From assembly GCF_014189535.1 (NCBI RefSeq), contig NZ_CP050308.1, forward strand, positions 2,586,001 to 2,650,000: a DNA stretch of 64,000 nt, written 5' to 3'. The stretch is from Rhizobium lusitanum. GTDB taxonomy: Bacteria; Pseudomonadota; Alphaproteobacteria; Rhizobiales; Rhizobiaceae. Below are positions 7,047 to 7,748 of this stretch, piece after piece. The position numbers and the translations under genes are program-made. Under the pieces are notes generated by a model. The model did not search any database. It was not told where the DNA came from and was given only the letters and a program-made list of their open reading frames with translations. Positions within the stretch are counted from its first letter, which is position 1; the number at the start of each line of letters is the position of its first letter.

Positions 7047-7122
7047 GGGGCTATAGCTCAGCTGGGAGAGCGCTTGCATGGCATGCAAGAGGTCAGCGGT
7101 TCGATCCCGCTTAGCTCCACCA
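7047..7122 (+). tRNA. tRNA-Ala (anticodon GGC)
   Basis: This is a 76-base cloverleaf. The acceptor stem is GGGGCTA with TAGCTCC and the 3' end ACCA is encoded. The D arm is GCTC...GAGC, the anticodon stem CTTGC/GCAAG with loop ATGGCAT gives anticodon GGC (reads GCC), and the T arm contains GGTTCGATCC. Repeat sequence begins within 14 bases of the 3' end. Confidence 0.97.
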
Positions 7123-7135
7123 GCCTTCGCTCTGC

Positions 7136-7268
7136 GAGCTTCGGCTCGGCAAGCCCGGAGGGCTTGATGGGCTGAAGGCGAGAAGGCAGCGAAGGCTGCC
7201 GCGCTGAAGTTGCGCAGCAACGTAAGCGGGCTTCTCTCCATTTGACGAGAATTCTTTTCTCCTCTTTT
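7136..7268 (+). repeat. Multi-hairpin repeat, copy A
   Basis: This is the first of two direct copies of a roughly 130-base element; the best match is 7136-7240 against 7310-7413. It contains four short stem-loops in series: GAGC-TTCG-GCTC (7136-7147), AAGCCC-GGA-GGGCTT (7151-7165), GGCAGC-GAAG-GCTGCC (7185-7200) and GTTGC-GCA-GCAAC (7209-7221). Weaker similarity to copy B continues through a pyrimidine-rich tail to about 7268. It lies directly downstream of tRNA-Ala. Confidence 0.9.
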
Positions 7269-7309
7269 CGGTGTCTCAATTCTATCGAAGTGAATATTGC
7301 CAGTTGGTC

Positions 7310-7441
7310 GAGCTTCGGCTCGGCAAGCCCGGAGGGCTTGATGAGATGAAGGCGAGAGGTAGCGAAGGCTGCCGCGCTGAAGTTGCGAAGCAACGTAAGC
7401 GGGTTTTCTCTACTTGGCGCGAACTCTTCCTCATCCTTTTT
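7310..7441 (+). repeat. Multi-hairpin repeat, copy B
   Basis: This is the second direct copy of the element at 7136. The same four stems are kept. The third has GGTAGC in place of GGCAGC, which preserves pairing through a G-T wobble, and the fourth loop changes from GCA to GAA. Changes in loops and a wobble-keeping change in a stem suggest that the fold matters. It ends about 70 bases before the GIY-YIG gene. The 386 bases between the tRNA and that gene hold only these repeats and their spacer; overlapping open frames here are translations of the repeats and I do not call them genes. Confidence 0.9.
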
Positions 7442-7508
7442 GAATATTATTCTCACGGTCGTATCGTTATGGTTGCGTGCCTGCTCAGGCGCACTATCAT
7501 GCTTCTGC

Positions 7509-7748
7509 ATGAAGTATGTCTACATCCTCGCGAGCATTGAGGCTCCTGACCATCATTACGTGGGAGTGACGGGCGACCTGAAAGCCCGCTTGGCAAAGCA
7601 TAATGCCAAGGAGGTCCCGCATACTTCAAAATATGCTCCTTGGTCCCTCAAAACCTACATAGCTTTTTCCGATGAGGCGCAGGCCTTCGCTTTCGAAAAG
7701 TATCTAAAATCCGGTTCAGGGCGGGCCTTCGCGAAGAAAAGATTGTAA
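7509..7748 (+). CDS. GIY-YIG family nuclease, small solitary form
   Basis: The 79-aa product is a bare GIY-YIG endonuclease domain. MKYVYILASIEAPDHHYVGVT supplies the KYVYIL and YVGVT strands (the GIY and YIG equivalents), followed by the helix arginine in DLKARLAKHN, the conserved HTSKYAPW segment, and the catalytic glutamate in AFEKYLKSGSGRAF. This is the UvrC/YhbQ-like type often found as a single domain in alphaproteobacteria; the natural substrate is unknown. The start ATG 7509 has no clear ribosome site. It follows tRNA-Ala and two multi-hairpin repeats, and a link between nuclease and repeat is my inference. Confidence 0.9.
   Translation: MKYVYILASIEAPDHHYVGVTGDLKARLAKHNAKEVPHTSKYAPWSLKTYIAFSDEAQAFAFEKYLKSGSGRAFAKKRL

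Follow-up and report, generated by a model that had tools for sequence, protein, structure and literature searches.

A structured repeat and a solitary GIY-YIG nuclease behind a tRNA-Ala gene: a probable member of a tRNA 3'-end-specific mobile element family of Alphaproteobacteria

The window, that is, the whole stretch of 64,000 nucleotides that was analysed, contains a compact locus in which a tRNA-Ala gene, two copies of a structured repeat and a small nuclease gene follow one another on the same strand. The features of this locus and its right-hand flank are given below; the R1 model named there was built from aligned element units and contains no tRNA.

7047..7122, plus strand: tRNA-Ala(GGC) with encoded CCA, the gene whose 3' end bears the element (ARAGORN; Rfam tRNA 63 bits)
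7123..7231, plus strand: structured element copy 1 (full), with a two-stem fold, 0 nt after the CCA (R1 model 77.3 bits, E 1.4e-11; fold z -4.45)
7123..7131, plus strand: 5' strand of the P1 stem, GCCTTCGCT (R1 model alignment; family covariation)
7188..7196, plus strand: 3' strand of the P1 stem, AGCGAAGGC (R1 model alignment)
7198..7231, plus strand: P2 hairpin with a 3x3 internal loop; pairing in the element is best here (R1 model alignment; alignments A2-A4)
7299..7404, plus strand: structured element copy 2, a tandem duplicate offset by 174 nt and lacking most of P1 (R1 model 45.3 bits, E 3.9e-6; 90% DNA identity to copy 1)
7509..7748, plus strand: solitary GIY-YIG nuclease, 79 aa (PF01541 E 9.9e-12; alignment A1; model pLDDT 92.3; median dN/dS 0.056)
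7865..8587, plus strand: downstream ORF of 240 aa, DUF1275, the right-hand flank (PF06912 E 4.4e-32)

ARAGORN and the PF01541 match bear out the earlier note, which had described a tRNA-Ala(GGC) gene and a bare 79-aa GIY-YIG nuclease enclosing the repeats; the reading frame of the nuclease is intact. Three further ORFs over 7058-7540 gave no match in the Pfam search. The long minus-strand ORFs at 6954-7241 and 7058-7510, which cross the tRNA and the repeats, have no Pfam match and look spurious. In G001, G027 and G033, an ORF with a start similar to that of the window's DUF1275 gene follows an element-free tRNA (sequences compared by eye).

The two direct repeats reported earlier are real: 7135-7268 and 7309-7442 align in ungapped blocks of 50 nt (94%) and 49 nt (96% identical), whole-genome blast gives 90% identity over 122 nt, and local alignment of the two halves scored 96, the highest score among 200 dinucleotide-preserving shuffles being 18. 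Each copy is also more stably folded than every one of its own 200 shuffles, with z values of -4.45 and -3.49. The extent and shape of the element need revision, because in the R1 model it starts not at 7136 but at 7123, immediately 3' of the CCA, and what had been seen as four hairpins in series does fold but is more aptly seen as a long arm (P1) and a single hairpin (P2). In the R1 model alignment copy 1 has the full fold, and P1 of copy 2 is mostly unpaired. A third copy had been placed at 8651-8675, and the repeat had been called dispersed. We rejected the third copy, since whole-genome blast gives only a 22-nt 91% match (E 0.23), the genome has 7 occurrences of the core GAGCTTCGGCTCG and 6 of its reversed control, the site is absent from the R1 matches at E<=1, and the orthologous stretch reads differently in two relatives (L041, L059). 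Dispersal is likewise false for the window genome: all five contigs (6.94 Mb) were searched, and blast and the R1 model found two copies only, the next-best blast match having E 0.0096 over 49 nt. This genome gives no sign of spread beyond one tandem duplication.

The nuclease consists of the catalytic domain alone, which is intact both by sequence and in the model. Alignment A1 shows Y3, Y5, Y17, G19, R27 and E63 to be conserved, R27 being nearly invariant, and we take these residues to be the GIY-YIG catalytic positions. The AlphaFold2 model (pLDDT 92.3) has At-HIGLE, Slx1 and a UPF0213 protein as its nearest solved folds, and in sequence the window nuclease matches the UPF0213 protein 1zg2 at E 3.9e-8. 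Slx1-type proteins are structure-specific nucleases, and such a fold would suit a branched or hairpin substrate. Although the GIY-YIG domain and fold are shared with the UPF0213-like proteins and Slx1, the window family is set apart from the UPF0213-like group by its scores (>=60 bits versus <=49), by the conserved SGRAFAKKRL-like tail with which it ends in alignment A1 and by its position behind tRNAs. No NCBIfam family matched the nuclease at E<=1. Compared with 14 other type A copies, the window nuclease has pN of 0.05-0.12 and pS of 0.51-0.89, with pS saturated in many comparisons, and the median dN/dS at the Rhizobium tRNA-Ala site is 0.056 (27 usable of 36 pairs), demonstrating selection on the protein.

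A search of 72,556 plasmid and 50,697 phage records found no match to the nuclease, and PHROG gave one weak match (E 0.0032); a plasmid or phage gene was therefore rejected, and the element has no known vehicle. An anti-phage defence system was also rejected, as PADLOC reported 0 families. In a sample of the phylum, 28/397 genomes match the nuclease at E<=1e-12, 26 of them from the same class; around the two matches outside the class there is no tRNA within 1.5 kb.

Among 61 genomes (the window's own and 60 relatives), repeat DNA is present in 5, all of one genus. The other four repeat-bearing genomes carry an adjoining nuclease that is 82-91% identical, interrupted in G013, and 16 more of the 61 have a more distant nuclease match. 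At the 21 nuclease loci L040-L060, 16 nucleases adjoin a same-strand tRNA (Ala, Tyr or Pro) and the remaining 5 a tRNA 3' fragment. A named-locus scan with alignment A1 covered the best 80 of at least 578 confirmed matches, and 71 of these 80 have a same-strand tRNA 87-398 nt upstream of the nuclease; within the same best 80, no tRNA lies upstream on the opposite strand and none downstream within 600 nt. The tRNAs of these best 80 loci are of ten kinds (Ala GGC and CGC; Val TAC, GAC and CAC; Met; Ile; Tyr; Lys; Leu TAA), Ala GGC accounting for 47 of the 71; the protein matches and loci with the best names are those of Rhizobium. As for the nine misses, L093, L099, L102, L104 and L133 have a tRNA 3' fragment, L167 is cut by a contig end, and L135, L168 and L169 have no tRNA fragment within the 300 nt read.

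The same arrangement recurs in a class-wide sample, in which 75/387 alphaproteobacterial genomes have a nuclease match at E<=1e-8. The rows were split by hand at the gap between 60.2 and 48.7 bits into 49 strong and 43 weak ones, and we found a same-strand tRNA at most 402 nt upstream of 40/49 strong nucleases, with 21 anticodons. The remaining 9 lack an intact upstream tRNA: L177 has a clear tRNA 3' fragment, L331 has nothing, and L190, L194, L195, L197, L317, L323 and L324 have no more than a short CCGCCA ending immediately 5' of the element, the same ending as in 6/7 intact serine tRNAs checked. In the weak, UPF0213-like group, which served as control, such a tRNA is present at 4/20 loci and then at 1/40 further rows (half class, half genus), the weak rows examined being 40/43 of the class and 20/22 of the genus. 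The element and its nuclease are linked to tRNA genes and specific to their 3' ends, and a link between nuclease, structured repeat and tRNA 3' end is supported across the class and many tRNA kinds. Three of the four positive loci among those 20 controls (L338, L340, L342) are in 1.2-1.3 Mb genomes, where the UPF0213-like GIY-YIG match starts 5-11 nt behind tRNA-Arg(TCT) or tRNA-Glu(TTC).

The stretch behind the tRNA opens with one common motif in many hosts. An alignment was made of 42 non-redundant units. When a hand-drawn two-stem structure was applied to 26 of these, 97.7% of the cells pair, and 8 pairs are changed on both sides versus a shuffled mean of 3.2; the count of pair types stands out less, as 25/500 shuffles are equally high, and slid partners are far lower. 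The R1 model derives from these units. Stem covariation, proposed earlier as a check on the repeat, came out in favour of the earlier note and proved strong in the larger set, where 109 R1 matches (106 distinct) from 99 loci pair in 95.9% of cells and show 140 both-side changes versus 27.8 in shuffles, in an alignment that was fitted to the structure and so leans towards it. The stems hold 40 G-U versus 17 A-C cells (p 0.003), a modest lean to RNA given that the R1 model may itself favour G-U. All eight of eight single element sequences fold better than all 200 of their own shuffles. Other element classes, with different sequence, show the P1 arm followed by P2 with its 3x3 loop in 11/19 single-sequence folds (class A examples included); L283, L049, L178, L183, L053, L321, L328 and L332, the last cut short, fold otherwise. 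Read on the minus strand, the 5' module in the window fits the R1 model at E 7.4e-4, two-module symmetry exceeds all 50 shuffles in 12/35 elements, and GWAG is present in P2.

No curated Rfam family matched the element at the gathering score, so a known RNA family, whether a group I/II intron or another, was rejected; in four relatives, searched at E<=5, only a sub-threshold miRNA match (E 1.1) overlaps the element. Elsewhere in the window Rfam places a bacterial small SRP RNA at 33506-33602 (minus strand) and the alphaproteobacterial sRNA ar35 at 58213-58312 (plus strand).

A search of the 387 class genomes with the R1 model, under stricter filters, found 26 elements in 17 genomes. The element starts 0 nt after a tRNA in 21/26, and a nuclease or truncated copy stands behind it in 13/26 (in 8 of the 13, element and profile match are 3-13 nt apart), so that half are solo. 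A Bradyrhizobium-like genus has 1-11 elements in 38/40 genomes and mostly one strong nuclease match per genome; in the same draw a nuclease-profile match is present in 39/40 genomes, 38 above 60 bits, some truncated or interrupted. We examined 40 places in 13 mostly single-contig genomes of this genus, among the matches listed. Here 32 directly adjoin a complete tRNA (gap 0); a clear tRNA 3' fragment precedes 5 others and a degenerate one precedes 2 (L267, L280), and L275 has none before it. A nuclease adjoins 6 of the 40. For the clustering with GIY-YIG genes and tRNA ends envisaged in the earlier note the outcome is mixed: there is a class-wide link of tRNA and nuclease, but 34/40 Bradyrhizobium-like copies among the matches listed have no adjoining nuclease. 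One enzyme plus several solo copies, as in REPIN/RAYT, is what this genus displays; the window genome, by contrast, has a single nuclease and a tandem pair of copies. The idea that solo elements strictly need a nuclease in their own genome was rejected, since G466, G468, G069 and G105 have elements without a strong nuclease match; G465 and G480 have the nuclease without an R1 element at E<=1e-5. At L041, L046, L048, L058, L059, L222, L266, L272 and L282 the element stands behind a tRNA 3' fragment only, the cassette staying with the displaced fragment, as expected at the far end of tRNA-integrated islands.

In order to compare the inheritance of the two parts, 136 loci (truncated class rows left out) were reduced to 124 with an intact tRNA (12 lost) and then to 72 nucleases under 85% identity, with element classes assigned by our own patterns on the first bases. 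Across these 72, nuclease similarity correlates with element similarity (r 0.36, and 0.31 for pairs whose tRNAs differ; Mantel p 0.0005) and with tRNA identity (r 0.25, p 0.0005). Mapped onto the nuclease tree, element class needs 7 changes versus a shuffled mean of 27.6 (minimum 24), and the tRNA anticodon (23 kinds) changes 42 times versus 48.4 (minimum 46), exact counts that are weakened by strong support on only 6/69 inner branches. The few changes of element class and many of anticodon indicate that the element goes with its nuclease and that both switch tRNA often.

Sites with and without the element could be compared at the same tRNA. We read 30 Rhizobium copies of tRNA-Ala(GGC), of which 17 have a type A or B element and 13 have none. 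In 2 of the 13 (G011, G012) the element is elsewhere, behind an island-displaced tRNA fragment; no nuclease match exists in the genomes of the remaining 11. By rough pattern scoring, the nuclease at the 17 element sites is full-length in 9, damaged in 6 and absent in 2. Presence and absence at a fixed site together with decayed copies, a feature of homing genes, is therefore what Rhizobium tRNA-Ala displays. The Bradyrhizobium-like tRNA-Ala site occurs with type A and nuclease, with type A without it (L264) and with type B and nuclease. Sites at tRNA-Tyr have type A, type B, a truncated element or none. At 12/14 Bradyrhizobium-like tRNA-Ala loci, the exceptions being L286 and L291, shared flanking sequence begins again 3-59 nt downstream of the nuclease stop. 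Near-identical strains showed no insertion event, and neither a target-site duplication nor a sharp right end of the element was found.

That related bacteria have this pairing of repeat and nuclease behind many further tRNA genes suggests a small, undescribed mobile DNA that settles at tRNA ends. We consider it probable, at roughly 65%, that the window element belongs to a tRNA-3'-end-specific mobile element family of Alphaproteobacteria with a cognate GIY-YIG nuclease, one that would operate in the manner of REPIN/RAYT or of a free-standing homing gene. This reading draws on the location, fold and covariation of the family, on the co-inheritance of element type and nuclease, on presence and absence at the same tRNA and on the selection acting on the protein. 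Cutting, copying or transposition, and co-transcription are inferred. The element is a two-stem structured repeat, some 60-150 nt long, that starts exactly after the tRNA CCA, and in the autonomous form the gene of its cognate minimal GIY-YIG nuclease comes next on the same strand. Most likely it is a small mobile element, either selfish or domesticated, whose spread would begin with the nuclease: this may recognise the folded hairpins, the 3' end of the tRNA gene or both and cut there, and repair would then place a copy of the cassette behind the CCA. A copy inserted there would not damage the tRNA and probably shares its transcript, and copies without a nuclease would be non-autonomous. Counting against this reading are the negative results for an insertion event, a target-site duplication and plasmid or phage matches, the genomes with an element and no strong nuclease match or the reverse, the 9/49 strong nucleases with no intact tRNA upstream, the correlation of nuclease similarity with tRNA identity, the low dN/dS and the window genome's single tandem duplication.

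The main rival, which we hold to be unlikely as a whole, is a host function in tRNA 3' processing, in which the element would be a structured tRNA 3' trailer, the GIY-YIG protein a processing RNase or accessory factor, and spread a matter of occasional duplication or recombination. It would account for the tRNA lying on the same strand in 71/71 tRNA-bearing named loci (best 80 of at least 578), for the stem covariation and for the G-U excess over A-C in the stems (40 versus 17, p 0.003), and the median dN/dS of 0.056 with saturated synonymous divergence at Rhizobium tRNA-Ala fits it as well. However, the element is patchy within a genus, being missing behind 13/30 Rhizobium tRNA-Ala copies; two element types occur at one tRNA, 6/17 element sites were scored (roughly) as having a damaged nuclease, and some genomes have elements without the nuclease, all of which argues against a host function.

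Since tyrosine-integrase islands also use tRNA 3' ends, the cassette might be their cargo or att-site debris, and the nine loci named above, where only a tRNA 3' fragment precedes the element, would agree with such a scar. Yet most elements directly follow an intact tRNA (21/26 in the class; 32/40 among the matches listed), solo units of about 55-120 nt occur at many tRNAs, plasmid and phage records gave no match, and the locus has no integrase, its three extra ORFs having no Pfam match; a flank that begins again 3-59 nt past the nuclease stop at 12/14 Bradyrhizobium-like tRNA-Ala loci leaves no room for one. An island origin is accordingly very improbable in our judgement. The window genome taken by itself, with only two copies and one such locus, could even suggest that an unrelated orphan nuclease and a decayed repeat have met behind one tRNA, but class-wide co-location and co-inheritance make a chance meeting scarcely credible.

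A working analogue for the putative action of the nuclease on tRNA genes is SegB of T-even phages, which the accessible part of PMC13096335 describes as a free-standing GIY-YIG homing endonuclease beside tRNA genes of many isotypes that cuts inside tRNA genes at the motif RAWTSGAAC. We read this motif as the tRNA T-arm. Both systems have a GIY-YIG gene adjoining tRNA genes; SegB, however, is a phage gene for which the accessible part of that paper mentions no attached structured repeat, and the window protein has no match in phage records and is a catalytic domain alone. REPIN/RAYT systems are alike in their short hairpin repeats, solo copies and mostly one associated nuclease gene per genome, RAYTs being, in the available portion of PMC8049555, single-copy, vertically inherited genes that copy REPINs at very low rates. 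They differ in that the window enzyme is a GIY-YIG protein (PF01541) and not a tyrosine (HUH) RAYT, and in that window-family copies are few (1-11 per genome in the Bradyrhizobium-like genus), sit at tRNA CCA ends and apparently have no CGTC tag.

Our literature search, over titles and abstract openings with preprints and most subscription papers outside its scope, found no account of the element or of a GIY-YIG/REP link, and nothing useful for the name BjrC1505. The one paper found to contain both 'RAYT' and 'GIY-YIG', PMC9465073, lists the two in a gene table. The portion available of a 2006 survey of the GIY-YIG superfamily records no GIY-YIG homing endonucleases in Alphaproteobacteria (PMC1564403), which makes a homing-like family there unexpected. 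If the reading is true, a further nuclease family would join the known bacterial ways of copying tiny repeats, and a recurrent unannotated structured stretch behind tRNA genes would be explained. An element landing exactly behind the CCA with the tRNA unharmed would also offer a compact, naturally site-specific system in which to study how tRNA genes are located by nucleases.

The control family turned out to have repeats of its own. CGTC-tagged REPs are reported, in the part of PMC3733652 at hand, mostly from Alphaproteobacteria and as not associated with transposase genes; like the window element they are palindromic repeats of Alphaproteobacteria, but their sequence is different and they adjoin another GIY-YIG family, not the window's. 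We scanned for perfect palindromes tagged with CGTC, TGTC or CCTC, counting as near those within 350 nt of a UPF0213-like GIY-YIG gene. The class set gave 20 near versus 2 far (in 35.8 and 88.8 kb, respectively; p 1.8e-9), at 9/40 loci, 5 of them both-sided, and the genus set 42 near versus 2 far (in 18.0 and 45.9 kb, respectively; p 4e-21), at 15/20 loci, 14 both-sided, p values that are too small because REPs within a locus, like loci within a genus, lack independence. Under stricter criteria 21 loci gave 4 near and 0 far, and the CGTC-type scan of 80 named window-family loci 20 matches in 460,709 bases. With CGTC REPs around the control family, the question is no longer confined to one odd family: GIY-YIG nucleases may act more generally as REP partners. 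We regard as evenly balanced the broader proposal that Alphaproteobacteria run a REP/REPIN-like economy with solitary GIY-YIG nucleases rather than HUH transposases, in which one branch would be addressed to tRNA CCA ends, element and nuclease moving together between tRNAs and hosts, and another would partner the CGTC REPs. If this is true, it would supply a candidate enzyme for alphaproteobacterial CGTC REPs, for which none was known.

The UPF0213-like loci L334-L393 are in part flanked by CGTC/TGTC REPs, often bilaterally and in inverted orientation, for example L347, L356, L360, L364, L383 and L389. The other small GIY-YIG gene of the window genome (L001; G000:C5:3383900-3384115, outside the window) has copies of a different repeat, CCCTCGTGGTTCGAGG...CACCATGAGGG, on both sides.
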